64,000 bases of DNA from contig BDIU01000280.1 in NCBI GenBank assembly GCA_002118135.1, positions 186,001-250,000 of the forward strand. Reading direction: 5' to 3'. Shown one piece after another: positions 1,108-64,000 of this stretch. This DNA is from Trebouxia sp. TZW2008 (taxonomy: Eukaryota > Chlorophyta > Trebouxiophyceae > Trebouxiales > Trebouxiaceae). The position numbers and the translations under genes are program-made. Position 1 is the first letter of the stretch. The number at the start of each line of letters is the position of its first letter. The notes below the pieces were generated by a model. The model searched no databases and was not told the origin of the DNA. It saw only the letters and a list, made by a program, of their open reading frames with translations.

Positions 1108-4100
1108 CTAGGCAGTCTCTGGCTGTGGCTGTGATGCTGTTGCATTTGCAGCCATAGCTCGCCGGACTGCAGCAGCTCGACTTTTGTGCAGTTCAGAGGC
1201 GGCAGGTCTCTTATAGGGCCGCACCACATTAGACCCAAAGCCTGGTACATGCAATTGCCTGCAGGACAGCAAGCAACACTCGGGTTCTGGCATCATTTCA
1301 CACCAGATCTTGACACTTTGATCACACAAACTGCAAAACCACCCCAACACCCCTAACTCTTTAGCCGTGCTGACTGTCCAAGAAAAGTACAGGGGGTTTT
1401 GTCACATCCTGTGCACTCAAGCACTGTGTGAAGACCCAAACAGAGAAGTTCTCCAGGGACGATATCCCAACACATGGAGTCTGCTAGCTTTGCTGGCATG
1501 TCCTTGTTACGGTGATGCTGGTGGCAATGATGCTGATGTGCAGTGATATGTGTGTAGCACGTGTCTCACCAGTTATGCTCAAGGAATGCAGCAAGATCTG
1601 CTGGCTGTAGCTGTAGGTCTTCAGCACTGGCTCCAGCAGACTGCCTTCGTTGAGCCATGCTGCAGCCAAAACTGAGGGCCTGGCCAACCAAATCTTCCAT
1701 GACTTGAACCAGCGCAGCCTCTGCTTCAGGCTTGAGGTGTAGCTTGGGTCCCCCAACCCTTGTCAGCAGCTGCTGCAGTGCCTAAAAGTGGAACGCAACA
1801 TTCATGGACTGGCTAGGTATGGGTGGACGGATCGACCAGTTGATTCCTCCATGACTTGGATCAACGCAGGGTCTGCCTGAGGCTTGAGCTGCAGCTTGGG
1901 TCGCCCCACTCTTGTCAGCAGCTGCTGCAGTGCCTATAAGAGAAATGGATTTGCAGTTGACTAGGGGACGGGCGGATTGGTTGCTCGATTGATTTCTCCA
2001 TGACTTGAATCAACGCAGACTATCCTTCAAATTTGAGATGAAATTTGGGTCCCACTACCCTTGCCAACAGCTGGTGTAGTGCCTCTACGTTACATGCATT
2101 GTCAATGAACCCATTGACTTGTTGATTGAGTGACTGAAGTGCTGCTTGGAGGCTGGGTGTGCTAATGAAGGTAAGGTTGTGTGAATTTTCGTTTGATACA
2201 TGACTGAGGGCTCATTGATACCTATGAGCATCAGTCATCATGATTAACTCATTGCATGCTTTGGGTTTGAGATGTAGATTGAGTCCACCTACCCTTGACT
2301 ATAGCTGCTGCATTGCCTGCACAGTGCATGCATTGTTGACTGAGAGAGCGTTCAATTGTGACGGTGATGGATGTGCACATGAACAGATGACTGGCTGAAT
2401 GATCAATGCATGACTGAGTGCTCACTGATGCTCGTTGGTTCAGACATTTCTTGTCCTCTTCTGACATGTCAAACTGTGTCAATCAGTGCTTTGAGTCATG
2501 CTCACATCATGGATCAGACACAAACTGTCCCGACATCACATTGTCACGGTCAGATCACACTCAAAAGCTTAGATCTGGTTGGATTGGACATGATGCAGGC
2601 ACTTACCTGTTTGTTCAGAAACTTCTTGTCTCCTTCTGACAAGACTGCTGGTGGTGGGGTTGCTGCTCTAGCAGGCTGCGCGCTAGGTTGGCCTGCCTGT
2701 GGGCGCACCTGTGAGGGGCCAAGACCAGCACTGCCCTGCCCTGCATCAACACCATCGAAAGCACATTCAACACCCGTTAAGACTGTTGCATTGACTACAA
2801 CAAGTAGTGACAACTTGATGGGAGGAGAAAAAGCTGTTGCTGGTGGTGCTGCTGGTCTGGCAGGCTGCGTGTCAGGTTGGCCTGCCTGTGGGCGTACCTG
2901 AAGGGGCCAAAGCCCGGCACTGCCCCGCCCTGCATCAACACCATCGAAAGCACACTTCACACCCGCTTAGTCTGTTTCATTGACTACAGCAAGTAGTGAC
3001 GACTTGATGGGAGGAGAAAAAGCTGTTGCGGGTGGTGCTGCTGCTCTAGCAGGCTGCACGTTAGGTTGGCCTGCCTGTGGGCGTACCTGAGAGGGTCAAA
3101 GCCCAGCACTGCCCTGCCCTGCACCAATCCCAACCACATGACACCAAGGGCACAGTCTATGGCATGGCAGTGCAGCATAGCTGGGCGGTGCGCAAGTCCT
3201 GTGCGCAACATTGCTAGATCTAGTGTGTTCATTGCCTTTCGTTTGCATATGAGTCTGAGCAAAACTAGCAGCAGCTGTAATAGCTGAGCACGATGTAAGA
3301 AACCACAGTCTGTATCATCATGCTAGTTTGGCACATAAGTCTGCAGTCAAGCTCAAAGCATGTGAAACGGTGCTAAAGGGACGCCACGGTCTATCCAAGG
3401 CCTCTCAAACACGCCTAACGGCAAAGACTTTTTCTTTTCTTTTTTCTTTGAAGCGGTGCGCATTCTGCATTGCCAGTGCATCAAGACCTGTAAGGTTGTA
3501 CATTTGTGAACTCATGGCACACATGTCTGCAGCAAAGGTCGCACCACAATGAATCTGTGCACATTCTGCATTGCTGAGCCATTAAGGCCTGTACAACTGA
3601 TATGTTATGGCATACACGTCTGGAGCAAAAGTAGCACCACAATGAATCTGTGCACATTCTGCATTGCTGAGACACCAAGGCCTGTATAAGTGTGCCTCTG
3701 TGACAAACAACTCAGAAACAAATCAGCAGCGTGGTGGTGCTGCTGGTGCACCTGCTGCATTGCTAAGACATCATCATTTACACAGTGTTGACTCTTGGCA
3801 CACCAGCATGCAGCAAAGCTAGCAGCATGAAAACATTGTGCACATTCTGCATTGCTGAAACATTACGGCCTGGATGAATGTGCTTGTGTAGCATACAAGT
3901 CTGTGGCAAAGCCAGCAGCAGGGTGGTAGACTGCTCACCTCCAGGGATGCCTGGGGGAGTGGCAGGCCTGTGAATGCCTTGAGGGTACACAGGGTTGAAG
4001 GCTGGCCTGTTAGCAGGGTAGGAGGTTGACGGCTGAGGAAAGTTTCCCTGCATATGACCAAAATCAAATCATCATCTTTGGATCACATCAGTTTTGTTAT

Positions 4101-8269: not shown

Positions 8270-11200
8270 ATGTCGGTGCGTAATAGTGCGCGCTTTTTCG
8301 GCACCTTGATGCTGCCTGCGACCTGACGGCATCGAATCCATCAAACTGATGCTCTACTTTTGTGCAGGGCGACCACGGTGGTCTTGTCATATCTGATCAG
8401 GAACAACAGAAATGGTTGGACGAAGCAAGCACGTCCGTCAAGCGCAACGCATTCTTCATGAAAAAGTCGCTGGTGGGTGCTGATCTGTTGCACTGCGACA
8501 GACAAGTCGCGCAGCCGATGTCAGCGAATGGCATGTTTACAGGACGATGACAATTTGCGTGAGGCTCTCAGATACTCAGCAGCTATGTTGGGCGAACTTC
8601 GCACATCGCAGCTCACGCCTCAGAAGTACTTCGAGCTGTACATGCAGACTTTCACTGAACTGCAGCACCTCGAGGTGCGCCAGAGAAGCCCTGCCAAAGC
8701 TTGATATTTCTCTCGTGCTGTCAAGAAAGAACTCTCTGATCTATATGCAGATGTTCTTCAAAGAGGAACACAAGAAGGGTCGCCAATACTCGGACTTGTA
8801 TGAGCTGGTGCAGCATGCAGGCTATGTCTTACCGCGCATGTAAGTCTTTGAGCAGACAGCATCAGTTACTGTATGCATCAATAGCCATAAGCAATCATCA
8901 TGCCTAGAGCTTTGAGATTGCTTTCCTTTGCTGCACGCTTGCATGAGCAAGGTTGTGCGCGTGTGTCAGTCATGCAGACGGACACAAGCTTCAGCAAAAA
9001 AGCATCAAATACTTCATGCAGCATGTGACAGTGTTGCGCCTGATAAGCATTCATTTCATTGACTCGTTCCAAACATGTGCTAGCCAGGCTCAGCAGGCCC
9101 AGCTAGGTACGTACTGGAGCAATCAACTGTCTCCAACCAGTTTGGTCCTGTGCTAATCTCAACCACTTGTATTGAGCATGGAGGGATGTAAGTTCCTTAT
9201 ACACAGTTGTCTGCCAAGTGTCTCTGGCCAATAAGCATGCAGACATGTAATATGACCTGCAGGTACCTTTTGTGCACTGTTGGCTCTTGCTACATCCGCA
9301 GCAAGGAGACAGCAGCAAAAGACATCTTGAAAGATTTGGTGGAACTATGCAAAGGGGTGCAGCACCCAACCCGAGGCCTCTTTCTGCGCAGCTACCTTTG
9401 TCAGGTTTGTGTTATGCTCTCTGCCCCTGAGGCAGCCATGCTGCATTACTTACTGCATGCTGAATGCATCCTGTCAAATAGTAGCCGCTGAATGTGATGA
9501 AACTACCTGTGCTGACATCACACACACAGACAATACTTTGCATCAAATGATGTTCACCAATGCATGCATGAGCAGGTATTCAAGGTGCCACACCCACCCC
9601 AGCAAGCACAAAAATGCTAGGCCACTGTATTCTTGGTGGATGTGATTGAGGTGTCAAGGGATCTTCTGCCGGACGTGAGCCCCTGAGATGTCTAGGGTGA
9701 ACTCCAAATGTATGTCATGCTCAGGCTGTTGCAGCCTTGCTTGATGCGCTTGAGGGCGTCAGGGGCTCTCCTCATGCATGTCATGTCGAACTGTTGTGCT
9801 TGCAGGTGTCAAGGGGTCTTCTGCCAGATGTGGGCTCTGACTATGAAGGCCCGGGGGGTGACATTACAGATGCAGTGGATTTCCTGCTGGTCAACTTCAC
9901 GGAGATGAATAAGCTCTGGGTCCGCATGCAGCACCAAGGCAGCATCCGTGATAGGTATGCCACTTGCACGCCAGTTGTGGTCAGGGCATGTATCAGCTGT
10001 GGGTCTGCGTGCAGCCTCGCGCCATCGAGGCAGCGTCCATTATATGTTTGCCAGATGCACACCAGCTATGGTCTAGATATGAACAAGCTGTGAGTTTGCA
10101 TGCAGCACCAGCGTAGCATTTGCGACTGGTGACCTGCATCAATTGTGTTCTGTCTAACAAGCTCTGCTGCTGCTGCTGCTGCTGCTGCTGCTAACGCTGC
10201 TGCTGCTCATGTGGCTGCTTTTCTGCTGTTTACGATCTACATACAACTTTTATCAACCAGAGTGTGTAGAAGCTGTAACGTGCCCGTCATGCATATAGGG
10301 TCTTGACAAGGCATGCAGGTTGCCGATGCATGAGGTTGTTGTTCAGCAGCTTTTGAATGATGAAAGAACTGTCAGAAGAGCGCTGGTATGAGCTCTCTGA
10401 TTCATATGCTGGGATGCAGGGAGCGGCGGGAGAAGGAGAGGCAACAGCTGGCTGATTTGGTGGGGCGCAACCTCACATATGCGAGCCAGCTAGATGGCCT
10501 AGACTACAAGCTGTATCAGGTGAACACTCACTCCTGCAAGAATTGTCTGCCTTGACCCTGCAAGATCTTATAGGTCTTTCATACAAATTTGGTGATATTG
10601 ACCTGATAGGGCATAATCTCACCATTAAGCCAGCTGGGCAGCCTAGACTACAAGCTGTATTGGGTCAGAAGTTCTATCTATGGTTGAGTGCATTTCTTAG
10701 CTTTCTTTGCTCACGGTCACTGTCATTTGCCATCTTACCTGAAAGTTCTTGCACCTGGCATGAAAGTGTCACTGCTTTTACAACATAGGAGCAAAGTGTC
10801 AGAGACAGCACAAACGCATGTCCAACGCTGCTGCCATAAGCTAGTGTTGCCTATGCAGAGCGCAGTGCTACCCATGTGATTGAGCAAGTCACGCAGTGCA
10901 AGGACAACATTGCCCAGCAGTACCGCATGCAGTGCATCAAACAGCAGCTGAGCACAAATGTTGCTATCCAGAGTGTGGTTCTGCCTTGTGCGTCGAGCTA
11001 TCCCTCAAAGCCAGGACAACTTTGCACAGTAGTGCCTCATGCAGGAAATGACTATTGTGAACAGTAGCTGGCAAAACTTGGTATTGATTGCTTACAAGCT
11101 GACGTTGGCTGTGCAGAGTGTAGTCCTGCCCCGTGTGATGGAGCAAATTGTCCAGTGCAAGGACAACATTGCCCAGCAGTACCTCATGCAGTGCCTTATC

Positions 11201-14200
11201 CAAGGATTCCCAGATGAGTTCCACGTCAGTACATTGGACGTGCTGTTGGGTGCGTTGCCAGAGCTACAGGGCACTGTCAAGGTCCATGTCATCTTGGGAA
11301 GCATGTTGGATCGCCTAGCAAGGTAAGCTTTGCCTGATCTCAATTGTTTTCTGATGGATGAGTGCAATCCTCAAATCAGCACTGTGGATGTGCTGCTGGG
11401 TGCCTTATTAGAGCTGCTAGGCACTGTCAAGGTCCAGGTCATCTTGGCAAGGGATCAGCTGGCCAGGTATGCTTTGCCTAGTGTGTTTGAGCTCACTGTA
11501 GTGAGTACTTCATTGTCCTGTAGTAGCAACTCAAGGGAGTGGTTTCATCATGTCAGCACCCTGATGCGCTGCTGGGCGCATTGCCAGGGCTTCAAGGCAC
11601 TGTAATGATCCACGTCATCTTGGCAAGCATCCTGGACCATTTGGCCAGGTAGTCTCTGTCTGCTGCTTTGAACTGTCCTGAAAAGAATGGAGTCTTGGTT
11701 CTTGCAGCAAGCAGTCCACGCCATCCTGGCAAGCATGCTGGACGGTCGACCCAGGCGCTATGTCTGCTTCTCTGAATTGTCCTGTAAAGGGTTCAGGGCT
11801 GTAGCCCCTGTAAACCTGTCCAAATTGAGGGTTGCAGTCTCTGAACGCCAATTTTGAGCTACAACGCATTGTATAACATTGCTGCTTCTGTGCATTATAT
11901 AGAATAATTCACTGTGATCAGAATCAATGCAGTGTTTGTTGCTGTCATGCAGTTACGCTGCCGATTCTTCAGTCCTTGAAGCGGTCAATGAGGCAAATGC
12001 ACTCAACAAGCTCAGTGCTGCAACCGTTCTTTCATGAATCCAATCATTGAATCCCAAGCTCAAAGCTAAAACCACAATGTCTTGCTGTCATGCAGTTACG
12101 CTGCCAATGATCCTTCAGTCCTTGAAGTGTTCAGTGAGGCAGATCCGTTCAGCAAGCTCAGTGCTGCAGCCCTTTATCCATGAGTAGGTCAATGAATCTC
12201 AAGCTTGCTAACAACATAATGATCTCATGCTGTCATGCAGTTATGCTGCCAATGATTCTTCTGTCCTTGAACATTCAACGAGGCAGATGCATTCAGCAAG
12301 CTCAGTGCTGCTCATGAATCCAATCATCGAATCCCAAGCTCAAACTTGATACGACAATGTCTTGCTGCCATGCAGTTATGCTGCCAATGATTCTTCAGTC
12401 CTTGAAGGGTTCAGTGAGGCAGATACATTCAGTAAGCTCAGTGCTGCGGCAACTGAAGTAGCACAGCAACAGGGTGAGATGCCGGCGGGAGACATTTGCC
12501 ATAGTACATGTTGTGACACTAGTAACAGTATTGTAAAGACGTGTTGTTGACATGCAGTTATGCTGCCAATGATTATTCAGTCCTTGAAGCGTTCAGTGAG
12601 GCAGATGCATTCAGCAAGCTCAGTGCTGCAGCAACCAAAGTAGCACAGCAACAGGGTGAAATGCCAGCAGGGGATGTGGCCTCTATGTACATTGCCCTGC
12701 TTGGGTTCACAGGCAAAGTCTATCCGGACAAGTTGGATTACACTGATAGAGTGCTTACTGAGTGCTACCAGGTACAGAATCTGGGCTTGTTTGTGCCTAT
12801 CAAGTTGGAACAGATAGAAAGATGCCAGCAGGGAATGTGGCTTCTATGTATATCGCCTTGTTAGGATTCACGGGCAAGGTGTATCCAGACAAGCTGGACT
12901 ACACAGATAGAGTTCTTACTGAGTGCTTCCAGGTAGAGGTTCTCGTCTTGTTTGTGCCTGTGCATTTTGAACAGGTGGCACACTTGAGGTTGTTTGTGCA
13001 CAAGGTCATGTGCATTGCCCTGCTGGTTAGCAAGGCGTATCCAGACAAGCTGAATTACAGTGATGGACTCCTTACTGAGTGCTACCAGGTAAGAAGAATT
13101 TGGTCTACTGATGCATGACTGCCTGTCAGTTTGTGTCATCTAGCACATCTGGTTGTGGTTGTTTGCAAGCTTGCTAGCGCGCACTTCCTGTTGGGCTTTG
13201 GCCAAGACCCTTTCACGCAACGACATACGAAAGGCACACAACATGCAAAAGCAAGAACTGTGTAGATGCCTCTCACAAACTTGCCAACCAAGTGCTCAAA
13301 GAAGCATCAGGTGGAGAAGCCGCTCCTCGATCAACTCAATGATCAGCCTAATGTCCATTTGATGCAATGACAGGCACTGCAAAGACTTGGGCTCAAGTCA
13401 GATCCATGAGCAGAAAAGCGGCTTGTGGCGCTGCTATCCATATCTGGTTGACTTCTTCGAAACAGAATCATGTGCAAGTTTGCACAAATGCTGTTCATGA
13501 ACTGAAAATATGTTGAGCAAGTTTGGACGTTTGTGTTGGGCGTCAGGCAAGACTGACTTGACGCAATGACAGGCACTGCAAAGGCGTGAGCTCAAATCAG
13601 ACCCTAGAGCAGAGCAGCAAGTTGTGGCACTGCTATCTAGGTCTGATTGAGTGCTTCAAACAGAATCATGCGCAGATTTGCACATATGCTGTATATGGAC
13701 TGACAAGTGCTTCAGCATGTTGAGACTTATGTTGTACGTCAGGCAAAACTGACTTGATGCAATGACAGGCACTGCAAAGGCGTGAGCTTAAATCAGACCC
13801 TAGAGCAGAGAAGCAAGTTGTGGCGCTGTTATCCATTCCCTTGGACACCTACGACGCTGTAACGGTGCTCAGCTTACGCAATTACCCCAGCGTAATGAGC
13901 CTCTTGAGTCCTCCCACCTACAAGCAGATGGCCGTGACCATTGTACAATCGATCATCAAGGCGCAAACCTTAGTCAGCAGTGAAGCTGAGGTGGAGATGC
14001 TCTTCAGCTTTATAGAGCCTTTAGTCAAGGACGTGCCTGGTGCCCAGGACAGCACTGATGAAGAGGTGTGCACTGCTGTGGCATCTGCTGTGGTCTGCTA
14101 TGTCGGTGAAGTTGAAACTATGTGTGATGCTTCCTGCTTGCCCAGGCACTGTAATTTTGGCATGTGATGTCAGCCTTAGCATTGTGACATGCGTGACACA

Positions 14201-17200
14201 CAATGGGCCATGCATGTCATCTTGCTTGCACTCAGTCAGTCAGCATTCCATGTATGGTTGTGAGTGTGATTAAAAATGTGCCTGCTGCCCAAGATAACAC
14301 CGATGAAAAAATACACGCTGCTGTAGCATGTCAAAACATGAAGGATGTATGCTAACAAGGCATGTTTGCTTGCATGTCGGCATGTACCGCAATGCTCTAT
14401 GGCTTATAGTTTCTTGCTAGCAATCCTGTTTGATGGGGCTGTGCATATGCACAAGCCCCTCAATTTTTGTGCAAATTGTGTGCTCTTACACACGCAATAC
14501 CTTTGTTGTCAACAATTTAAAGCAGCCATGCTTCTTGTTGCAGGACTTTGCTGAGGAGCAGAATTTGGTGGCTAGAATGGTACATCAGCTGCGCTCAGAA
14601 GGCCAAGATGAGCACTTCCATGCAGTAATTCGGTTTTGGTCCGATTGATTCTGTTTTGCCTGTACTTCCAACACAGGTATGGTTGTCATTTCAGGACTTT
14701 GCTGAGGAGCAGAACCTGGTTGCCAGAATGGTGAACCAGCTGCGCTCAGAAGACCCGGATGAGCGCTTCCAGATCCTGAAGACTGCAAGGAAGCACTTTG
14801 CTTCTGGGGGTCCCCAGCGAGTCAAGCACACCCTGCCACCGCTTGCCTTCTCAGCACTGCAGGTAGGCCACCTATCTGTCTTGATGTGTCTTTTTGGCCT
14901 GATGCTTGGCCGACAATAACAATAATAATAATAATAATAATATTTATAAAAAATTTTAAAAAAACATGTTCCAGCATGAATTGCTAGGTATGTGTGGCAC
15001 AAGTCCTATCTCGCCAGGCAGCCTTGTCTTGAACGTCGGGATATGGACGCCTGATGGTCCATGACGATGGTCCATGTGATGGTGATGGTGATGGTGATGT
15101 ATGTACATTTAAGCGTGCTACACCCCTTGCTGTTTCAGCATCGCAATTGTGCTACTTCCTACCTGTCTTGGTGTTTGTCAACGTTCATTTTGCTTTGGGG
15201 GTCCCCAGCGAGGCAAGCACATCCTGCCACCCCTGGCTTTCTCAGCATTGCAGGTCCGTTTTTCAATTCTTGCACAACCAATTTCTCCCCTTGATGCGGA
15301 TGGTATGCTTTCATCAGACTGCCTCTGGTGGCTCGCAGCGGGTCAAGCAAACCCTGCCACCGCTTGCCTTCTCAGCACTGCTGGAACGCTACTTGCTCTT
15401 TGTACATGCCATTTTTGCCTTCCGTTTGGGTGTCTCTGTTGTCATCAACCTGCCTAGCATGCATGCCAACATATGCATGTTATCTCAGATTGCCTTTTCA
15501 GCACTTCACTCATGTTGATTCTGTTGCACCTGCCTTGGTATCTTGTCCTTTGTTGGGCACCCAGCGCCTCTGCTAAAGCGTGTCATCTGATTAGCATTAC
15601 TAGTTGTTATTGAGGGCCCACAATGGTTTAGACACACCCTGCCATCCGTAGCGTTCTCAGCACTACAAGCACGTGATGTCACCTGTTGCCAGCTTTGCAA
15701 GGCAGGAATGCCATTTGAGTCTTGAATCCATAAACACTCCAAAATCACCTGCCCAAAGATTGGCCTGCGTGACTCATTGACTAGACAAATAAAAAGATGT
15801 AGCCGAGAGTTTTCTATTCAACACCTGACTGTACATCCTATTGTCATTCGATCGAGCAAACATCTTGCATATGTCACCTTAGTCAGAGTGCAGGCCTCCT
15901 CTTCTTTGCCACTGTCCTCGTGCTCTCACCTCCTTCTTCTTCTGTGTTTCCTCTGCTTCATTTCTTGTCAGAAGGTGGCAGCAAACCATATTTTCAATAA
16001 TTTTGACACTTCCATCAAGAAAGTTTCAAACAAACAAGGTATGATGGGGACAGGTTTGGGTGCAAAATGTCAAGCCTCCTCACTGTTGTTCCTCTCACGC
16101 AGTTGGTGCGGTCTCTGAAGAAGAGGCAGCGCACTGGCCAGTCAGCAGACACTTCATGCAAAACGGTGAGGCTCTCAGACACATGGACCTTCATGTGCAC
16201 AGATCTGGGTGTGGATCACTTGCATCGACATGTGTTCAGCCATTCATTAGTTTTGTCATTCTCATGAAGATGTACTGATTACATTCATTCCAGGACTCAT
16301 CCCTAGTTCATGCAAACGCCTGCCTGCCTGCCTGCCCACTCACGCACTTTGTTGCACAAGTCTGACCATAGCATCTGCACCAAGGCTTTTGTTGCAGTTT
16401 CACATCCCAATGCATCTGACTTGCAACCTGTCTCAAGGTTAATGTCACCATGCTCCAGTGCATTTAGATGCATGAGTCAGTCAATATGGGCGGCAGAGCC
16501 CTTGTGAATCTTCTTGTTCAGATGTGGTAACATGCAGGTGTTGCAATTTGTGCATGCCATTGCAGCACCTCTAGCAGATGGGCCAGTGGCTGAAGTGGCG
16601 CTGCAAATTCATGTCCAAGCGCCCTGTTAATCATTTCACTACTAAAATGTTGATGGGCACTTTGTTTCCCATCTGACTGGACAGTCCTGACTTTGTTTTG
16701 CAGGTGTTGCAATTTGTGCATGGCATTGTAGCGCCTCTAGCAGATGTGCCGGTGGCTGAGTTAGCGCTGCAGATCTACCTCCAAGCAGCCTTCTCTGCGT
16801 CTGAAGTGGCTCATTTGGAAATGATTGCCTACGAGTTCATGGAACAGGTAATTGCTATTCAATTGCAGTTGTTTCCCAAGCTGCAAATCAAGCAGCCTGT
16901 TTCAGCGCATCGAGTGGCTTGTGAAGAGATGATTGCCTATGACGTTATGGAGCAGACGTCACTCTACGCTGGAATGTGTATCATCTCCTTGTACAGCGTC
17001 TTCATTCATGATTTGTGGTATTGTCATCATCATTCCAGCTGAAATGTCATTTCTGGTCAATTGTAAATTGATGAGACATGGCATGCATACTGCAATGTCT
17101 GAAATGCAGTCTCAAAAGCAGACAATCTGTCAGCATTGACGGGTGCAGCTGAAAATAATTTCTGCTGATGTTCCAGATGGCCTTTGCTGACATTCGCCTC

Positions 17201-20200
17201 TGCTGATAATCATTCACCACTTCTAACACTGCACTCCTTCACTGCTGAGGATCACTCACCTCTGCTGACATTGCATTACCACTTCTGACAAAGGCTGATC
17301 ACCGCTGACAGTGAAGTGCCCATTACTCACAATGAATTGTCCACTGCTGCTGGTGGACTTTCCACTGCTGACATTGCACATGCATCCTGCAGGCGTTCAT
17401 TCTGTACAAACACGCAATCCCCAACAGCAAAGCCGAGATCTCCGCCTTGTACAGCATTATCAGCACACCACAGAGCCACTGAACCTTATCAGCCATAGCG
17501 GCACATTGTGCAGTGGAATGGTCACTGACAGTGTGAATATGCCCTGCAGGCGTTCCTTCTGTATGAAGAGGCCATGTCCGACAGTCAAGCCGACATCTTT
17601 GTCCTGTACAGCATTATCAGCACACCACAGAGCCACTGAGCCTTATCAGCCATAGCAACACACTCTTCAGTGGAATGGACACTGCTGACAGTGTACATAT
17701 GCCCTGCAGGCGTTCATTTTATATGAAGAGGCCATTCCTGACAGCAAAGCGGAGATTACCGCACTGCAGAGCATTGTCAGTACGCTTCACAGGTGCCGAG
17801 TGTTTGCCCCTGAGAACCGAGACGTGCTGGTGCACAAGGCGACAGGCTACAGCGCTAAACTTCTGAAGAAAGCAGACCAGTGCAGAGCAGTCTGCACTTG
17901 CTCCCACTTGTTCTGGCAGGAGGAGGTGAGCAATCACTTTGATATTGCAAGTCTGCGTCTTGGGTTTGCCCATGCTTGTCCTCACCCCTGAGAAACGAGA
18001 TGTGCTGAAGCACAAAGCCACAGGGTACAGCGCTAAGCTGCTAAAGAAAGCAGACCAATGCAGAACAGTCTGCACTTGCTCCCACTAGTTCTGGCAGGAG
18101 GTGGTGAGCAATCACTTTGATATTGCAAGTCTGCGTTTTGAGGTTGCCCACGCTTGTCCTCATCCCTGAGAAACGAGATGTGCTGAAGCACAAAGCCACA
18201 GGATACAGCGCTAAGCTGCTGAAGAAAGCAGACCAATGCAGCGCAGTCTGCACTTGTTCCCACTTGTTCTGGCAAGAGGTGGTGAGCAACCAGTTTGCTA
18301 GAGCAATTCTGGGTTGTGAGTTTCAGCACTTGACCTTTTGCCTCTGAGAATCAAGACAAGCTGGTGCACAAAGTCACGGGTTACAGCGCCATATTGTTGA
18401 AGAAAGCAGACCAATGCAGAGCAGTCTGCACCTGCTCACAACTTTTTGGGCAAGAAGAGGTGAGCAACCACAGTTTGATAGTGATAATTTGGCTTTTGAG
18501 TTTGTCCAATTGAGGATCTGCCTCTGAGAGTCAAGACATGCTGTTCTACAAAAGCCACAGGTTACAGCACTGGATTGCTGAAGAAAGCAGACCAATGCAG
18601 AGCAGTCTGCACTTGTTTCCACTTATTCTGGCAAGAGGAGGTAAGCAGCCAGTTTGATAGAGCACACCTGGGTTGTGAAATTTCGCCACCAGAGATTTTG
18701 CCTCTGAGAATGAAAACATGATGGTGCACAAAGCCACAATCTAAGGCGCCAAACTGATCATGAAGGCTGACCAATGCAGAGCAGTCTGCACCTGCTCACA
18801 CTTTTTCGGGGAAGAAGAGGTGAGCACCCACACTTTGACAGTGACGATTTGGCTTGTGAGTTTCAGCACTTGACCTTTTGCCTCTGAGCATCAAGACAAG
18901 CTGGTGCACAAAGTCACGGGGTACAGCGCCAAAGTGTTGAAGAAAACAGACTAACGCGGAGCAGTCTGCACTTGCTGCCACCTTCTGGCAAGAAGAGGTG
19001 AACAATCAGTTTGATAGAGTGAACTCATGTCTTGAGATTGCCCGCTCAAGTCTTTGCTCCTGATAAGCAACATCGTTCCGGTGCGCACATCCACACATCA
19101 CAGTTGCTCAAGAAGGCAGATGAATGCAGAGCAGTCTGCACTTGCCCCTGCCATAACTTGTATCACCTATGATGCATGCATTAAGTGTGACATGTGTGAC
19201 TTACCAGCAACAGCAGTGCCAGAAGAAGATGGGCAGCCCAGCACAACTGGCGAAGAGGATGGGAACAGCAGGAGCCAGTCTCCTCATTTTGCCCCCCGCG
19301 GTCCCTGTTGTACAATCTGGCATGCATGGCTAAGTTATGACATATGTGGCTAACAGGCAACGGCAGTGCAAGAAGAAGATGGGCAACCCAGCACAACTGG
19401 CGAAGAAGATGGTAACAGCAGCATCCAGCCATTAGTACAAGACGCTGACAACGTCCTGAGCTGCTTGAAAAGGGCACTGAAGATTGCAAATGCGGCACAA
19501 AAGCAACTAGCAGTGGCCTTGAAAGCATCAGATACAGGGCCAGCATTTCTGTATGTGGAGATACTGAACCAGTATCTGTACTACTTTCAGCGGGGCTTAC
19601 CAAACATCACATCATCAGTTCTGCAGGTGATTCTTACATTTAGCAAAGCTTACAGATGCTGTTGTTGAGTGGCTCATCTTGCTGCATGTGAACATATTCA
19701 AGCAGTATCTATCTCTGAGCGGGGCTGACCAAACATCACGTCATCAGTTTTGCAGGTAAGATCTTGCTGTTGCTGAGCTGGCTGACCCTTGAGAGCAGCA
19801 ACTCTGGGCTGCCTCTATCAACAAAGGCTCCCGCTGTGACGCCTAACGGCATAGACATTCCTTATTCTTGTTTTTGAGCTGCACTCACAGTTGTTGAGCT
19901 GCACTCACTGTTTCTGAGCTGCCCTTGCTGTTGTTGAGCTGCTTTTGCTGTGGTTGAGATGCACAAAATCTGATAGCTCATGCATTCAGGTTTGCTTGCA
20001 GTATTTGGTATGTGCTGTAAGCAAAGCCGTTGGCTGTTGGTTTTCTGTTTGCTGTCAGTGTCTTTGAGGCAGTGTTGTACATTGCAGTTTGTCCATGCAC
20101 TGTCACTGATGCTGAAGCTTGCGCTGAAGAATTCTGCAGCAACCCTGCCCATGGCTGAGCAGGCTGCTTGCAATCTTTTCACACATGATGTATTGCATTA

Positions 20201-41240: not shown

Positions 41241-41272
<32 letters not shown>

Positions 41273-44200: not shown

Positions 44201-44539
44201 CTTCTCGATTTCAGAGTCAAGAGTGCCTGCAGTGCAGCAAGGCCACATGCAGCAGCTGAGTTTAGCTTTTCACAGAACATTTGCATCGTTTGGCTTGCAT
44301 CAAGCACCGTGAACGCAGAATGGCTAGGGGAGTTGGGTAGGCAATGACAGCGTAGCTTAGGCAATGGCAAAGGTACCTTGGAAGATGAATTTGCGGGCTG
44401 TGCAGACTTGGTCTAGCTGCTCACTGTCTTTAACAGCGATAATGTCTTTCAGCTTGAGTTTCAACAGGCTGTAGTTCACATATTGTGGTGCCCATTCAGC
44501 AAGCCTAGCATTTTCAAGGTTGTGCTGAAACTGCACCAT
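38158..44539 (-). CDS. SPX-MFS vacuolar phosphate transporter (PHT5/VPT family)
   Basis: PHT5/VPT proteins move phosphate across the vacuolar membrane, gated by inositol pyrophosphate binding to an N-terminal SPX domain. Ten minus-strand exons join in phase: 44377-44539, 43871-44226, 43396-43476, 42846-42970, 42188-42353, 41414-41534, 40626-40772, 40135-40209, 39507-39696, 38158-38941; about 735 residues (Arabidopsis ~700). SPX spans residues ~1-150, with VNYSLLKLKLK (Tyr23, Lys27) and GIRKILKKFAKH (~135-146), the basic ligand-binding helices. MFS part: CLSSGLYMANYQLVLPN, DIGAAVTMAGVVIG, GLGSARTVNRRYIADF, SAAGMALGPLLA, then a polar loop (EEPSSPGQLENG) and the C-terminal six spans with LEGSGMSLMSK and GLMSTEAGTLGRL. 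The donor of exon 5 is GC (ATG/GCGAGT). Copies of exons 3, 5, 7, 8 and 9 lie in introns. Confidence 0.92.
39108..39432 (+). repeat. GACA/CAGA microsatellite blocks
   Basis: Two (GACA)n blocks (about 39115-39250 and 39318-39432) with GGAC and GATA variants in the last intron of the SPX-MFS gene. Both strands give long artefactual frames (poly-SVCL or TDRQ). A matching block is at 53285-53370 in another gene. Confidence 0.95.
39740..39815 (-). repeat. Exon-edge copies, SPX-MFS exons 8 and 9
   Basis: A fragment of exon 9 (GTTGAATGGTTGGG context) lies at about 39745-39800. A fragment of the exon 8 start lies at about 40268-40310 (TCTGCAATGAAGCGCC). Both are acceptor-side copies in minus sense. 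Confidence 0.55.
40825..41020 (-). repeat. Acceptor-side exon-copy array, SPX-MFS exon 7
   Basis: Two copies of the exon 7 start (SSFKA.L.S.AIACI and FGNALYCIEYDTK) lie at about 40828-40945 and 40948-41015, spaced ~125 bp. Both resemble the intact exon closely but break off before its LLTGLG donor end. Confidence 0.8.
41052..41276 (+). repeat. CAG-rich interrupted microsatellite
   Basis: Four CAG runs of 6-9 triplets separated by ~35-base similar spacers (CATACGGCAGGGAAGATGTA and variants). The spacers are repeated too, so this is a higher-order tandem of [CAG run + spacer] in SPX-MFS intron 6. Confidence 0.9.
41699..41785 (+). repeat. Dispersed repeat family B, copy 2
   Basis: Shares CCTCAGCAGGCCCAGCTAGG and TACTGGAGCAATCAGCTGTC with the copy at 9079-9165. 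It is intronic in the SPX-MFS gene, on the antisense strand of that gene. Confidence 0.65.
42003..42140 (-). repeat. Donor-side copy of SPX-MFS exon 5, with a GT donor
   Basis: This copy repeats the exon 5 3' part (ERRAGIFEPAPTDVLAVATTLGLVLNCLSSGLYM) almost unchanged and ends at ATG/GTGAGG, a normal donor. The intact upstream exon 5 ends at ATG/GCGAGT. The copy lacks the exon start (MDDWEKLAQ) and an obvious acceptor. Confidence 0.85.
43185..43240 (-). repeat. Donor-side copy of SPX-MFS exon 3
   Basis: Minus-sense text CACAAGGTGCTGGTCACAGC then TGCTGCCAGG/GTGC repeats the end of exon 3 about 200 bp after it. Confidence 0.7.
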
Positions 44540-45493: not shown

Positions 45494-48400
45494 TCAACCA
45501 GCTGTAGCCAGAGCCTCAGCTCCAGGAGTAGCAGCAACAGCACCAGTGGATGAAGGAGGTGCAGAAGTTGCAAACAGCACTGCTGGTCTGGTGGCGCAGG
45601 TCTGAATGACAAACTGGCCAGTGGCTGTCTTGCCTCCCTGCCCTGACACCCCCCCTGCTGAGCCCCCAGAGGGGTTGGAAGCCTGCAGCCCAAAGCCTTG
45701 ACCTGCAACAGAGCACTAATGCTACATTGCATGCATAATAAAACGATGAACATGGTGATAATCAACAACAGGAGTGACAGTCATGGGCACAGCGACAGTG
45801 ACAATGCCAGAACCCCTGCTATACAAGAAATTCAGGATAGCAGAGGATGGAACTGATTGGAGTCAGCTGATTGCTCCAGTACGAACCTAGCTGGGCCTGC
45901 TGAGCCTGTCTAGCACACGTTCAGAACAAATGACTGCATGAGAAACCCTGCTGGCAGTAGGTCAAATGTGATACACAGGTGTGTGACCCTTGTCCTGTCT
46001 TGGCATGCAATCTGGTACTTCACAATCATTGTCGCAATCACTATGCTACATGCACAGAAAATGTCGTTACATGAACAGCAATGCAACATGTGTGCCCTAC
46101 AATGGTGTGAACACAGCTGCTGTTTCTTTCTGAACCTTGAATCCTTGTCAAGCGCTGGAACCCATGCTCAAAGTTGTGTGATCACACTGCAGCTATGGGT
46201 CTCAGCGGTTCCACAAGGGCCCAATGGCAGAAGTTGAACAAAAGCTGTGTACTGTCCATCTGCTGAATGTTGTGTGCATTGCATTGGCTGAAATCTTGTG
46301 CTACAGTTGCACTACACATCACGTATTCCCAGCATTGCTGTCCAACTCTTGTATCCTCAACTGTACAACCTCCAGTCAACATGACACCACTGAGACCGGC
46401 TCTGCTGGTGTGCAATGCTACACGGGGCTAACAGGTCTAGCATTACTCAGCTTCAGAGGAGGTCTTGATGAGGGCATGTCAACTGAACTCTGTACAGTTG
46501 AGAGAGCATGCACTGGACATCAATGCTGGTGACAGCTCTGCAGGCACTGCACACCATCAGACCAGACTCCAATACTGCCGTACTAAACAAATCCTGTGAA
46601 GTCAAGGGCATGCATAGCAGCTGAGTTCTGTGCAATTGAGGACATGCACTAGACAGCAGTGCTGAGAAAAGGTGTGGCATCAGCTACCATGTCAGCGGTG
46701 TCTTACCAGTTGATTGCTATACAGGCAAAGGGCATGCACTAGACAGCAATGCTGTGAACAGCTCTGCAGGCACTGCACATCATCAGAACAGATGCCAGCA
46801 CTGCCATCTAACTAAATGCTATAAAGCCAAGGGCATGCATAATAGCTGAATTCTGTGCAGTTGAGGACATGCACTAGACAGCGGAGCTGGAAACAGGCGT
46901 AGCATTGCTCACCGTCAGAAGAGATATCCATGGTGGATACTAGCTGAATGCTATACAGGCAAGGGCATGCTCTAAACAGATGTGCTGGGAACAGAGGTGG
47001 TATTGCTCACTTTCAGAGAGAGGCTTAGAGGTGCCACTACAGTCAAATGGGCCTTTAGGAGGAAGAGCATAAGCTAAATGCTGCTTGCGGTCTGTATACA
47101 TCTTCTTACTGGCGTCTAAGCCTATACATATCTGCACCTGGCGGAAAGTATGCAGGACGACATTGAGGCATGCACTGGACAGCAGTGCTGAGAATAGTGT
47201 GGCATTGCTCACCATCAGAAGAGGTCTCAGTGGTACCAGTAGAGCCATCTGGGCCTGAGGAAGAAGAGCTGTAGGCACTTGCACTGTTGGTGCCAGTGGC
47301 CTCGCTTGATGAGGACACACCGTTGTCGCCGTCAAAGCTACATCACATATGTTTAACATTGGTTTCATCACAATTGGCATTCCTATGAACCCTTGACTCA
47401 TTCAAAGCACTGCATAATCTGTACATGCGTAGCAATGCCCAAGCTATCAGTGACTGCATATGAATGCTGAGAATGACGCGCCACAGACACCATCAAAGAT
47501 GTAGTACAATGGCAGATACTTGACAAATGTCCTGCCTATCAGTGTGACGCAAGAGCATGGCCAATGCAAACAAATTGAATGCAGAGCCCCTTTGACAGAC
47601 GTCCTTGCTGTGCTCAATTACTACACCTGACTACTGCACATATACTTGCAGCATTGCATGCTCCAAGGCATTCTGCTATAGAGCAGATATTGCAAATTGA
47701 CGCCGGGCAAGCTTGATATGCGTTCAGGCTGCTTGCACTTGCATGCATGCACAAGCCTTTGATCAATCAGAGGGCGCCACAGTACGCCAACACACAGCTA
47801 TCAGAAGCCAAAGTACCCACTTGATGTTCTGTGCTTGGTTGACAGTTGCAGGTCCAGCAGGGGTTGAGATCTGGGCTACACTGCCAGCACCGCCTGCACA
47901 AATGGCAGCAATCAAGCTGTGCATCGTTTTCTGCAATTCTTTTGCCAATTTTTATTGAACCCTTTCACCGTCATACATCACAATGTCCTTTGACATGCTG
48001 GTGTGTAATGCTGTATGCCAACGGCATGTGACAATCTGGCGTCCCTGCTGAAGTACTGTAATCATGCTATGCCTAGCACAGCAAACCAGCATCATGATGG
48101 CTGTACAAGATGCTTCAGGTAATGAAATCATGCTATGTCAAACAAGAAGACTGGCCATGTGATACAAGCATCCAGTCTACGCAGCAAGTCCTGCTGCCTG
48201 GCATAGCATGATGGCGGTGCTTGTGCATCTTGTACAGCCCTGAGGATGCGAATCAGCAGATGGACACCAGATTGTATATGTGCTGACGTCCTGCCAAGGG
48301 GCCGCGCTCTTGCTACACATGCGGGGATTGTGTCATGCGCAGCAGATATTGAAAACTTGTGAGCATGGCTTTGATGTGCATGCAAGCATGTGCCATTGCA

Positions 48401-53286: not shown

Positions 53287-53323
<37 letters not shown>

Positions 53324-56914: not shown

Positions 56915-59900
56915 TTATAGGTATTTGATTGGACCCTCCAGGCTTCCTTGGGAGAATTGTCTTACAATCGCTTCTTCTGACTTGTCAAAATCTGCTGTTG
57001 GCCCTTCCCACACGACCTGGCCCTGCAAACAATGCAGAACAGAACATTCAGCACGGCCCGAAAAGATCAAGCGCTTGACGAAAGCTTGTGCATTTTGCGT
57101 GTTGCACCTTACTGCCAAGCCCAACATCGTGATGCTTTCGGCACATTGAGCCAGACAGGGGTCTTTCCGTGATGCTGCAAATCATTGACAGCACTAAGCA
57201 AAACAGCAAGCATCAGCTGCATTCTGCAGCTACAAGCAGGAAGCAGTGCAGGTGCTCAAGCCAGTGCCGAGCAGTTTTGACAACAACCAATAGCATGTCT
57301 GCAGCTGGTATGACCAAGTGCAAGAAAGTCAGAGCTCACAGATCAATTCAGCACTGCACCCTTGACGTTGAACCTTACAGTCAATGTGCAGAAGCACATG
57401 CACAGTACTACTACTATGCATGAGGCATAACTTGGGACACACATATATTGCCTGTATTGGAGCATGCATAGTATTGACTCACTTCAAGAGACTGTACCTC
57501 ATGCAAGAAGACAAGTCTGTCCACAGCTCTCCTGATAGTGCTGTGCTGGTGTGTGACCACTATATAGCTGGAAATGCCCTCTGTCGTTTTCCTCTGACCC
57601 CTTGTGCTCTGCAGCGACCTTATGAGGTCCTCAACTACAGTGGAAGCCACGGGATCAAGGCCTGCTGTTGGCTCATCATACATCACAACCTGCAAGGCAA
57701 AAAGCACCATTGCCTTTTGGGGTCTAAGAGATAAGCCAAGCGCTGTGAAATATAGCTGGAACAGCCCTCTGTTGCTTTCCGCTTGCCCCCTGTGCTTTGC
57801 AGCAATTGGGTGAGATCTTTGACTATTGCAGGAGCAAAAGGACCAAGGCCAGCTGTTGCTGCACCATACATCACAAGCTGCAAAGACAAGAAGGAAAATA
57901 AACTATATGCTCCTTGCGTCAATTAGATAGAAGCCAAGCGATGTACAAAGATTCCTGATCAGTTCATAGCCTGCATCGTTCACAAGTGAACTTCTGAGGT
58001 GTTGAGCTCAAAGGCGTAAATTACTTTCCAAGAACGTGCATCTGGTCATGACTTGTGCAAAAGTTTGCTAGATGACATCACCAAACTATGCTTTGGTGAC
58101 TGTAGGTCTTGTGCTGCAGGAAAGGTCGACATGCGAGTGGTGTTGAGGGCACCTTTGTAGGCAAGTTCTGCAGGCCTTGCATGATCAATGACACTTTCTT
58201 GTGCTCTCTGCTGCAAACAGCGATTTGGCGGCGCAAAAGAAGATATGCATAGGTGCAATGAACCTGCAGACATGGCGCCTTTGTTGACAGATGATGCCAT
58301 ATCAAGGTGCTGGCGTATATGTAGCCTTCAAGTGTTTATGTTTGATTCTGTTGAAAAGGATCAGATGAATGCCTGCTCTGCGTGGTCATTCTCATTGTCC
58401 CTGATGATGGCTCTGGCCAGAGCGACCCTCTTCTTCATGCCACCAGACAGCTCACCGGGAAACAAAGGCTCCACACCAGACAAGCCTACTGCCTTCAATG
58501 CTTGCGCCACAAGCTCCTGGAGGTCAAATGTTCAGCTCCGTTTACACGTTACGAGCACAGCAGTAGAATATCCAGCACCAGAATGCGCTGTGTCGAAAAC
58601 CACGGGCATAATCATTCCTTTTTGCGTCTATGCTTCATGAATGCTCTGCAGAGAGAATGGCAACATCACCTGCTCGTGTAAGGATGAGAATAGTGAAGCT
58701 GTGACAATATGCCATGCCAAGCAGAAGTGTCAGAGATGTTGCTCAAACACCTGATGCTGCAACAGTCCTCCAAGATTCCGTTAATAGACATATTTGATTT
58801 CATGATTCAGCATCTGACCTTGCCAATGCACATTGTAATGCGCAAAGCATGCTAACGCCAACCCACTCTGGACAACAGCTTCAGCCACTCGCGACAGGGC
58901 AAGCATGTGCTGAGCAGCTGCTGGGATCAGGCAGTAGTATTATCACACTACTCTCACCTCAATCCGGTCTTTGGGCAGGTTGCTATGCTCATACAGCATA
59001 AAACCCACATTTTCTCTGACATTGAGGGAGTCAAACAGGGCGCCATTCTGGAACACCATGCCAACTTTGAGCTGACTAGCAAGGTCCTTGTCATCTGCCA
59101 AAAGGCCCTTTCTGGCTTTGCCCTTGATCAAGACCTGCCCCTGGAGCAACAGCATCAAACACTGTCAGGTAGTTGGATCAGAAACTGCTTTATACATGAC
59201 ATGCGGTTGCAGCTGGCAGCTTGCTGGCATCATGCTCGACAGAGTATGAGACAAATTCAAACGGGACAACATGGCAGGAACCTTTGTGGGATGACTCCAG
59301 CAGGCACCTTCAGCATACGACTTGATACGAGTTTGGCGACTACCCACAACCATGATGACATTATACAAGGGCATGCAACCGCATGACAATCACGCCCAAT
59401 AATGTCAATGTTTGAAGGCCAAAGATGTGCATGCAAATGCTTGACATGTCATACCACATCAGGCGTCAGTAAGCCCGCCATAATCCTGAGTGTGGTTGAC
59501 TTGCCCGTGCCAGAGCCCCCGATTATGCCCACAGCCTCACCCCTATGTATGGTGATGTTAGCCCCTCGCAAGATTGGTTTGCTGCCAAATGACTTGTAGA
59601 CATTCTTCATCTCTATGAGCACATCACCCTTGGCAGATTGTGGTGCTGCTACAGCTGCTGATTGAGCAGGCTGTGGAGAGGCTGGTGCTTGAGCTGAGGA
59701 AGATGCTTGTGCTGGGGAAGCTGAGTTTGAGCGTGAAGAGGATGCTTGTGAGGGCAGTGACGGTTCCTGGTTACACAAGACCCTCTGTGAGTGTTTGTGC
59801 TGTGACCTTACTCATGACACCTTCACTGTAACACAAGCACAGAACACAGGAGCTTGGCAAGTGGTTGCTGCAGGAAGTGAGTGCCTCACTCGCCAGCCAA

Positions 59901-61122: not shown

Positions 61123-64000
61123 ATGACACTGTCGTATTGTAGGAGCCCGTCGTCGGCGATAAACGTGCTTCATACAGCCCAACTGCTGTTGCAGCCAGCA
61201 AATGTACAGCTACTGCATGAGCCGTTTCTTGTCTTGTTCCAGTCGCCCCTCAGTCGGCCTGTATCGCTTGTCAGTAACTGCAGCCCAGGAGCAAGCCAAG
61301 GATTTTCCCGTTTTTATGGCACATCCGCAGCAAGCCAGTCTGCAAAAAGCGCAATGCAGCTCAGCAATGTGCAAGACAGGCACAAGGCCAGCAGAATGCT
61401 GTCTGCACTGCTTCGCCAGTCTACCACCAGCATGCCCTCGATAGCACAAGATCAGAGCAGCAAGAAAACGCTTGCACCGGGAGCCAAGAAGAGCATTGCC
61501 GCTACAGCTAAGAATGTAGGAGAAATGCTGGCACAGAACGCAGAGAATGCATCTGCAAAAGCTGCTACAGCAGCAAAGAAGGCAAAAAAGACAAAACCTG
61601 CATCCACCAAAAACTCTGCCAAAAGCTCTACAAAAAGTTTCACAGCTTCTAGCTTGCAAGTGAAGCAGTCCAAAGCAGCCAGCAAGCAAGTCATCCCCAA
61701 GAAAGCAATGACACAGCTGCAGAAGCAGTTGCGTGCCATACTCACGGAAGCAGCAGTTTTGCCGCACTGGCAAGGCCAACATTCTGGCTTCCAAGCGTGC
61801 CAGGACAATGTCAAACTTCTGTTTCAGCTCATCTTTACTCCACCCAAGAGAAAGAACGCTGCACAGCATTTCCAAGCTGTGCAACCCACAGAAGCCGCCA
61901 TCAGTCAATGCCTGGAACAGATTGTGCCGGTGTTGCTGATGCCAAAACAAGCGCCTGCTCAGAATATCATGGGGGTTGCGGAATTTCTGCAAGACATCAT
62001 GCACTTGAGTCGGGAGCAGATCTTCAAGTGCATTTGTGAAGAGCCGTCAATACTGCATCTGGATGTGTACCAAGATTTGATGCCCATGCAAGACTACTTC
62101 AGCACTTTGAACTGGGAGCCTCAGGCGTACAATCACATGATTGTCAAGTACGTTTGCTGCTTGCAATGCTTGCCATGTGTGCATCAGATCTCCAAGTGCA
62201 TTTGTGAAGAGCCTTCAGTGCTGCATCTGGATGTACACCAAGACGTCATGCTCATGCAAGACCACTTCAGCATGCTGAAATGATGTTGAAAATCAAGTGC
62301 ACAATTGCATGATTGTCAAGTATGTGGTTGCTTGCAGTGCTTGCCTTTCATGCATCTGACTTACTGGTCTGTTGAGCAGACATCGCATGTGCTAGGCACT
62401 GTTTGATACACGTCTGCTTGGCATGAAGCTGTGGGTTCTGCTCACTGTATGCCAAGGCCATCTTACCATGTACATGTTCACTTCAAAGCACTTTGTGGCC
62501 TTTGTGGCAGTTCATTGTCGTGCAGCGCAGTGAATAAGCAGCAGCAAAGTGAGGCAAGCAGTGACTGTTTGGCTGTGTGTACAGCCTGTCAGGGAACATG
62601 CCATCACGACATTTGTGTCATGTGGATTCAGACTGTCAACAACTGCCAACTGTGTGCATGCAGGCATCCGCAGATCCTGCTGTTGCCGCTGCAGCAGTAT
62701 CAGCGCAACATAGGCTACCTCTTGGGACAGGGATTGGAGCAAAGGGAGATCCTGGGCATGTGGCTTCACAGGCCAGGGCTCTTGATAGAGCCCCTGAGGC
62801 TGCTGCATGGCGAAGTGCTTGCCTTGCGGCAGGCTGGCCAATCACTCCAGGTGCGTATGCTAATCTGCTCGTTCTTGCGCTTACTCAGTCATGATCTTAC
62901 TTGCTCACTCAGCCATGCACTCACTCGCTCACTCAGTCATGTACTCACTGCCTTATTCAACATGCGACCAATCACCTTAATGGTCATGCGGTCACTTCTC
63001 TCTCTCGCTTGCTGTTTTGCCTGCTTGCTCGCTCGCTCGTCTGCTTGCTTGCTCGCTCTCGCTCGCTCGCTCGCATGCCCACCCACCCCTTCACTCAACC
63101 GCCGACTTACTCGCTCACTCGTCCGGTCACCCATCCTCCCACTTACCTACCCAAGCACCCTTCCACAATTCTAAGCACTTGATCACTCACCCAGTCATAC
63201 ATATATTTCCAGTTCTGTATCAGCCTTGCAGCCTCTACTCTTGCTTCAGAGAGCTTACACGGTTGTGTAGTCTATGTAGCAACAGGTTACCTTTCCAGAA
63301 ATTGGGTACAGAAAGCTGATAAGGCTCTTGTTGAGCATGCAGGATCTGGCCTTGCCAGCCAAAGACAGGATTGCACCGCTGCTAGAGCCCAAGGGGCAGC
63401 TTGTCAGCCCAGGTGAGAACTTACTGTCACATTGCTGTCGTAATGCTGTCACAAATTTGAGAGATTAAGCCTTTGCTAATGTACCTTTCAAAAGATGCCT
63501 AAGCGGAAAAGCCCTTGGCTAATGAGATGCTGTTGCGCTTGACCATGAATGTGATGTGACAGCATCTGGTACAATGCAAGATTTGGACCCATGTGATGAA
63601 AGTACTCCCTTTCTGGTTAGGCCCACCATTTGTGACCTCCAGAGCGTAGTGGTGTTCTGTTTGACGAGCACATAATACTTCTGGTATAGGTAGCACATAA
63701 TACCTAGGGTGTTGACAAAGCATAGAGATTAGGTACCGTGCTGCAGGTTATGGGCAGCTTGTACCACAACATGCAATTACAAGCAGACCGCAGAACGACG
63801 CCGTTTCAGCAGTTGTTGGAACGCCGCAAGCTGTCTACAAATGGAGAATGAATGCCTTCATCCTGAAAAGGTTTATTGGAATCTACCAGACCCCTGGGAA
63901 CAAGTTTTATGTCAAAGGTCCTTTTGGGAAGAGGAACGGCATCGTCAGGCTTCAGAGGACGTATGACTCCATGCTTGATGCTGCCAAGGTGTACGACAGA
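61123..64000 (+). CDS. mTERF-family protein with C-terminal AP2-like domain (3' end missing)
   Basis: mTERF proteins are organelle nucleic-acid-binding helical-repeat proteins. Four exons join in phase: 61123-62147, 62664-62850, 63316-63412, 63747 to the edge. The N-terminus looks like an organelle presequence (MTLSYCRSPSSAINVLHTAQ), followed by a Lys/Ala/Ser-rich linker (~110-195). mTERF-type repeats follow: IMHLSREQIFKCICEEPSIL, NHMIVKHPQILLLPL, LGQGLEQREILGMWLHRPGLL and LLSMQDLALPAKDRI. The last exon, read in the only phase that continues, gives FIGIYQTPGNKFYVKGPFGK...VRLQRTYDSMLDAAKVYDR (residues ~479-521), which matches the AP2/ERF pattern (G-V-x; W/F-x-x-x-I; LGTYDT..EAA.AYDR). The exon 3 acceptor (AGAAAG/CTGATA) is atypical. 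If exon 3 is wrong, the AP2-like exon could belong to another gene. Confidence 0.72.
62148..62335 (+). repeat. Donor-side copy of mTERF exon 1 end
   Basis: A ~185-base unit repeats the last ~150 bases of exon 1 (KCICEEPSVLHLDVHQDVMLMQDHFS, then a diverged end) and its donor (GTCAA/GTATGTGG in the copy). A single tandem duplication across the exon-intron junction explains it. Confidence 0.9.
62860..63175 (+). repeat. Low-complexity CACT/CTCG tract in mTERF intron
   Basis: Pyrimidine-rich CTCACTCA and GCTCGCTCGCTC repeats fill intron 2 of the mTERF gene. Frames here (LARSLACLL...) are artefacts. A purine-type counterpart (GAGTGAG, GTGCGTGC) is seen at 43255-43385 in the SPX-MFS gene. Confidence 0.85.

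Follow-up and report, generated by a model that had tools for sequence, protein, structure and literature searches.

Introns of several Trebouxia sp. TZW2008 genes carry tandem copies of the adjoining exon edges

Intron growth is usually ascribed to transposons and to unspecific insertion, and the repetition of exon sequence in tandem within a gene is familiar from tandem exon duplication and mutually exclusive exons. As set out in the available parts of the sources, tandem duplication is also an accepted route of intron gain (PMC3443670), a single tandem duplication across an intron-exon boundary of the potato RdRp gene made a new intron (PMC4974935), and introners change intron content on a genome scale in unicellular eukaryotes (PMC9860276). 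The arrays described here resemble the potato case, as so described, in that an intron-exon boundary lies within the duplicated stretch and splice signals travel with the copy, but potato offers one event in one gene that yielded a new intron, whereas in Trebouxia there are many events in many genes, with up to seven copies, and they lie in long introns that already existed. With the AGGT model of intron gain they share a tandem duplication within a gene, the effects of which splicing conceals; however, in the part of PMC3443670 consulted that model duplicates an exonic AGGT segment to give an intron, whereas the Trebouxia units straddle an existing splice site, which the match itself crosses in 17 of 18 arrays of the modelled genes, the exception being exon 9 of the SPX-MFS gene. 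The genome scale recalls introners, but these, on the description available, are copied into many genes, while each Trebouxia array resembles its own gene. Unlike tandem exon duplication, none of the 44 copies that we extracted holds a complete exon with both splice sites. Boundary-crossing tandem duplication is a known kind of event; its repetition on a large scale, lengthening introns rather than founding them, appears to be new. The main text of one Trebouxia genome paper (PMC11523091) contains neither 'intron' nor 'tandem', that of another (PMC12712428) contains 'tandem' nowhere and 'intron' once, in a reference, and in the literature that can be read without a subscription we found no description of the pattern at this scale.

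The window is a stretch of 64,000 nucleotides (G000:C266:186001-250000) within the 68.5-Mb Trebouxia sp. TZW2008 assembly, which in size and GC content agrees with published Trebouxia genomes, at 63-74 Mb and about 50% GC according to the available part of PMC11523091. The firm basis of the analysis is the 33 exons and 30 introns of three genes modelled by spliced alignment of database proteins, VPS35, SPX-MFS and ureide permease, with 15, 10 and 8 exons respectively. VPS35 matches three named Trebouxia proteins at 81-85% identity. The SPX-MFS protein matches one named Trebouxia protein at 76% and two other sequences at 77-78%, and the ureide permease shows 80% identity across 64% of the query. 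The modelled splice sites are mostly CAG/GT donors and TGCAG/G acceptors; exon 5 of the SPX-MFS gene is modelled with a GC donor (window 42188), and its downstream copy has a GT donor. The models are as follows, in window coordinates:

8362..20594, plus strand: VPS35 gene, spliced alignment of Trebouxia protein P0001, 15 exons
8362-8472, 8543-8674, 8751-8839, 9263-9404, 9806-9954, 10420-10519, 11117-11322, 12558-12771, plus strand: VPS35 exons 1-8
13769-14065, 14695-14862, 16103-16165, 16704-16847, 17710-17925, 19357-19626, 20442-20594, plus strand: VPS35 exons 9-15
21722..25580, minus strand: ureide permease gene, 8 exons, spliced homology model
38161..44539, minus strand: SPX-MFS gene, 10 exons, spliced homology model

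A wider sample adds to the window 18 loci elsewhere in the genome (171.9 kb), of which 17 are evenly spaced (163.9 kb) and one holds a ureide permease paralog. Exons outside the three modelled genes were predicted with a small custom gene finder and are provisional. The finder over-predicted at first and was tuned on the modelled genes, which also seeded its first predictions at the loci, and it merged adjacent genes into long chains. Trained on the loci alone it matched 30 of the 33 modelled exons, 20 of them exactly, with two false positives in the first round and three subsequently; when entire genes were withheld from training, it matched 12 of 15, 7 of 10 and 0 of 8 exons. Pfam matches for GIN and ABC lie above cut-off, that for TAF12 just below it and that for mTERF below it, while a Pfam read-through of two reverse frames of 1-15 kb gave no matches, nor did Rfam at gathering thresholds.

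Comparison of the window with itself reveals 90 tandem pairs (at least 40 bp long and 50-2000 bp apart) occupying 21.6% of its length, against none in three first-order Markov shuffles of the same sequence. In the three modelled genes 23 of 60 exon edges are copied in the adjoining intron (17 of 28 in VPS35, 5 of 18 in SPX-MFS and 1 of 14 in ureide permease), against 3 of 3486 control comparisons with other introns and reverse strands, the 99.9% point of which served as the match threshold. Some arrays at other loci are coding repeats (locus L020), and it might be supposed that the arrays at large are chance similarity, low-complexity sequence or assembly error; this is almost certainly wrong, and for the three modelled genes the controls refute it, the copies being 75-94% identical to the exon and thus too divergent for assembly duplicates. 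The arrays are confirmed as real and far above chance.

The arrangement of the copies is ordered. Among internal exons of at least 120 bp, the first half matches the upstream intron in 10 of 18 cases and the downstream intron in one, and the last half matches the downstream intron in 9 of 18 and the upstream intron in one. With 130-bp queries 14 of 54 edges also match the intron on the other side, because such queries often extend past mid-exon; the single wrong-side match each way was obtained with 75-bp halves. The smallest period per array has a median of 151 bp (interquartile range 121.5-178.5, 63 arrays), with 41 of the 63 between 120 and 200 bp. All 18 arrays of the modelled genes lie at exon edges and none is confined to an intron. 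Similarity extends clearly into the flanking intron part (z of at least 3) in 8 of 16 units. The SPX-MFS exon 5 copy matches at 93% identity over its exon part, whereas its 63-bp intron part has no clear similarity (z 1.2). The original prediction of tandem exon-edge arrays within introns, with units of 110-200 bp, acceptor copies upstream and donor copies downstream, is thus borne out. Each of the eight genes that it named has an array touching an exon edge, on homology models in three and on the provisional gene finder in the other five, which are TAF12, the two head-GIN genes, the ABC (TGD3-like) gene and the mTERF gene. Its proposal that introns are lengthened agrees with the modelled genes, in which 17 of 30 introns hold an edge copy and 13 have no detectable one: the median length is 629 bp with a copy and 364 bp without (P=0.0003), and the introns without copies include the shortest, at 70, 76, 144, 150 and 173 bp. 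The copies and arrays are:

10838-10935, 10963-11044, plus strand: VPS35 exon 7 start, two acceptor-side copies
11376-11479, 11549-11662, 11714-11742, plus strand: VPS35 exon 7 end, donor-side copies
11937..12492, plus strand: VPS35 exon 8 start, four acceptor-side copies
12822..13106, plus strand: VPS35 exon 8 end, two donor-side copies
13359..13637, plus strand: VPS35 exon 9 start, two acceptor-side copies
14538..14620, plus strand: VPS35 exon 10 start, acceptor-side copy
15186-15255, 15320-15392, 15633-15667, plus strand: VPS35 exon 10 end, donor-side copies
16533..16620, plus strand: VPS35 exon 12 start, acceptor-side copy
17368..17630, plus strand: VPS35 exon 13 start, two acceptor-side copies, period about 157 bp
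17985..19148, plus strand: VPS35 exon 13 end, seven donor-side copies (the last only 42 bp), period about 178 bp
19188..19278, plus strand: VPS35 exon 14 start, acceptor-side copy
19679..19757, plus strand: VPS35 exon 14 end, donor-side copy
22825..22947, minus strand: ureide permease exon 7 start, acceptor-side copy, about 38 codons without a stop
41995..42124, minus strand: SPX-MFS exon 5 end, donor-side copy, 92% identical
40824..41051, minus strand: SPX-MFS exon 7 start, acceptor-side copies
39742..39790, minus strand: SPX-MFS exon 9 inner part, acceptor-side copy; the match stops short of the splice site
1693-2336, 2645-3127, 3449-3927, 3971-5183, 6379-7055, minus strand: TAF12 gene, five arrays, four touching a predicted exon edge and 3449-3927 touching none
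29576..36446, minus strand: first head-GIN (DUF2807) gene region, arrays, of which 29576-30017 and 36128-36446 touch no predicted exon
46503..47269, minus strand: second head-GIN gene region, array
57562..57893, minus strand: ABC (TGD3-like) gene, acceptor-side array at a predicted exon
62017..62359, plus strand: mTERF gene, donor-side array at a predicted exon

The 44 copies extracted from the modelled genes all fall short of crossing an exon (longest reach 123 bp, with queries of up to 160 bp of exon); 23 contain a gap, an in-frame stop interrupts 7, and 31 of 35 retain the splice dinucleotide. Identity between exon and copy is 82% over the exon part and 65% over the adjacent intron part (52% when shuffled), and between copies 79% and 70% respectively; the halved decay of the exon part would be expected if one partner there is conserved while both partners of the intron part drift. 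In nine arrays with at least two copies, changes private to a copy are distributed 55:33:56 over codon positions 1:2:3, with a dip at position 2 (P=0.03), and changes private to the exon 8:5:25. Mismatches at positions 1, 2 and 3 amount to 21.7, 13.0 and 24.1% between copies and to 12.6, 9.2 and 24.6% between exon and copy. The copies thus decay close to neutrally while the exon stays constrained. The predicted rise of decay with distance from the exon holds as a tendency but not strictly: among copies of at least 60 bp, similarity is greater for the nearer copy in 20 of 24 pairs and peaks at the nearest copy in 5 of 8 arrays. The innermost position of the intact exon is correctly described, yet tandem duplication makes it a geometric necessity.

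An alternative is that the copies are still used, as alternative exon parts or new exons, the duplication having created a new intron with the copy in use as in the potato RdRp gene. The scarcity of in-frame stops and the persistence of the splice dinucleotides speak for such use, as do the exon-copy codon differences, 211 synonymous and 208 non-synonymous, which contain more synonymous changes than neutrality would give, at 74% non-synonymous, and are more codon-shaped than expected for a neutral copy beside a constrained exon. At the start of a TAF12 exon, moreover, the gene finder takes the copy (window 1856-1924, minus strand) as an in-frame exon of 23 codons, resembling the potato case. 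A single instance is the first donor copy of VPS35 exon 8 (window 12640-12960), which stays in frame and looks constrained, its codon differences being 14 synonymous and 2 non-synonymous, but its P=0.0023 falls to 0.10 allowing for 44 copies. The changes private to copies show no clear third-position excess (56 of 144, with 48 expected), and reading the third-position excess of the exon-copy mismatches as a sign of coding copies finds little support in arrays with at least two copies. Spliced alignment to relatives' proteins skips the copies, and the SPX-MFS proteins of three relatives, compared as proteins rather than as gene arrays, have 733-734 residues and lack them. We therefore regard continued use of the copies as unlikely. 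We also note that at the VPS35 exon 8 copy an in-frame GT-AG path can be drawn by eye, making it a possible alternative exon part; a reading of GT and AG at the unit ends there as an intron gain rests on that path and was set aside.

The account that we favor, with a probability of roughly two in three, is that short random tandem duplications are sieved by their splice-site content and then decay neutrally. Duplications of about 100-250 bp would arise at many places in the genome, presumably through a DNA-level mechanism, and those holding at most one splice site would survive. A unit straddling an acceptor would place its new copy upstream and one straddling a donor would place it downstream, in both cases within the intron; the intact exon would keep one acceptor and one donor at exon distance, and splicing would presumably recognise that pair (exon definition), leaving the mRNA unchanged and removing the copy together with an intron now 100-200 bp longer. 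A unit with two splice sites would add an exon, and one lying wholly within an exon would in most cases disrupt the frame; both would tend to be purged. Some arrays would expand to four to seven copies, which would then decay nearly neutrally, and a copy of an exon edge would stay recognisable for longer than an intron-only copy because the exon is conserved. The intron end beside the working acceptor is at least 65 bp in 9 of 9 acceptor-side units, which may well suffice for a branch point and pyrimidine tract; it is 45 bp in SPX-MFS exon 9, 58 bp in locus L025 and less at some predicted acceptors.

How far such a sieve could yield edge arrays in all 18 cases depends, in simulation, on intron length. 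A random unit of about 150 bp holds one splice site with a frequency of 33% at present intron lengths and 65% with introns capped at 150 bp. If the visibility of intron-only arrays is taken as 5/16, the modelled edges whose intron part is at least 70% identical, the simulated probability of 18 of 18 edge arrays rises from 0.0006 at present lengths to 0.08, 0.44 and 0.85 with introns capped at 300, 200 and 150 bp; if it is taken as 8/16, those significantly similar, the values are 0.00002, 0.022, 0.27 and 0.77. The sieve with unequal visibility would therefore fit only with introns of about 200 bp or less at that time, and of near 300 bp at the most; at present lengths the model predicts too few edge arrays, which counts against it. 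Also against it are the units whose intron part lacks clear similarity, such as the SPX-MFS exon 5 copy, the codon-shaped exon-copy differences, the dip of copy-private changes at position 2, the intron ends shorter than 65 bp, and a centring of VPS35 units on the acceptor beyond what random breakage would give. The longer copy-bearing introns and the lack of copies in the shortest fit growth from introns that would once have been short. In the relative Asterochloris, with 9 introns per gene and with genes of 4240 and mRNAs of 1400 bases in the part of PMC6652019 consulted, introns of about 315 bp are implied, already borderline for the sieve. Systematic breakage of units inside exons, which had been taken as a sign of a special process, is observed but expected without one, since a unit that exceeds a short intron in length necessarily has an end in an exon.

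The original prediction went further and envisaged a process that keeps duplicating splice junctions. Such a process might, for example, act through breaks at splice-site-phased nucleosomes or breaks linked to co-transcriptional splicing and duplicate about 150 bp around the junction. The confinement of the modelled arrays to exon edges and the clustering of periods near 151 bp would agree with this, and in 7 of 10 acceptor units the centre lies no more than 8 bp from the splice site (null expectation 1.8, P=0.0005, taking the innermost copy), 7 of the 10 modelled acceptor-side units extending 65-83 bp into the exon; with four units outside the ten restored (VPS35 exon 5, SPX-MFS exons 8 and 9, and L025) the centring is 7 of 14 (P=0.003). 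However, it is clear in VPS35 (5 of 8, P=0.006) and not outside it (2 of 6, P=0.26) or at predicted exons (5 of 16, P=0.22), it weakens to P=0.03 with a limit of 12 bp and 0.06 with 20 bp, the 8-bp limit being post hoc, and only 1 of 8 donor-side units is centred (VPS35 exons 6, 9, 10 and 12 and SPX-MFS exon 3 left out). Visibility bias together with short introns can account for the excess at edges. Such a process is not needed if introns were short, when random duplication and a sieve fit, and we consider it improbable. The VPS35 centring may reflect chance in a single gene, or may hint at nucleosome-sized phased units. What favors nucleosome phasing is solely the unit size and this centring, and it seems slightly more doubtful still that a splice-site- or nucleosome-phased process duplicates blocks of about 150 bp centred on 3' splice sites, so that introns grow coupled to gene architecture; if it did, the fossil exon edges would date each growth step.

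Sieved random duplication, as the preferred reading, can also be set beside the wider sample. In the window and 18 loci together, 50 of 63 arrays touch an exon edge (36.4 by random placement; the count leaves out three arrays inside exons). Exactly one end lies in an exon, with no whole exon inside, in 39 of the 63 against 18.2 expected (P=5e-8); another nine, against 2.8 expected, combine one end within an exon with a complete predicted exon, some of these exons being copies, and of the remainder 12 touch no exon, two hold only a whole exon and one has both ends in exons. At the loci alone the first of these classes accounts for 18 of 32 arrays (10.6 expected, P=0.006). The process has a wide but patchy reach, and arrays are denser in the window than in the average sampled locus: the suggestion that it is genome-wide holds in that it extends beyond one gene and one window, with an edge-touching array at 12 of the 17 evenly spaced loci, yet tandem coverage there is 7.7%, part of it coding repeats in L020, and within the window VPS35 supplies 17 of the 23 copied edges. 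A chaperonin gene (L024) counts as support from other contigs; on contig C170 all three self-matches of a chaperonin gene lie at predicted exon edges, and in another chaperonin gene, on C237, the single self-match extends 16 bp into a predicted exon. In the second ureide permease gene no tandem self-match appears at E values up to 0.001. A search of the whole genome with two units of one array found five places, all within that array.

Here part of intron growth can be read from the sequence itself, in the form of copies of the exon next to the intron. If the process is genome-wide, each copy would preserve a former state of its exon with a near-neutral clock beside it, and the rate of intron growth, exon constraint and the limits on splice-site choice, that is, which outcomes are never seen, would be measurable in one genome. 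Gene predictors applied to such genomes may mistake fossil exon edges for exons, as in TAF12.

Other repeats are also present. Locus L020 (C375:20001-30000) encodes a long coiled-coil-like protein whose repeats recur at multiples of 42 bp, and its arrays sit inside predicted exons. Short-period repeats at window 36186-36283 and 54783-54867, with 24-bp units at 98% and 41-bp units at 97%, are not tied to a modelled exon edge. Two sets of similar sequences of about 60-110 bp are dispersed through the window, one at 9043-9172, 41665-41772 and 45821-45930 and the other at 14968-15049, 24517-24599, 27563-27665 and 49364-49461; both sets occur in both orientations and are perhaps short mobile elements.
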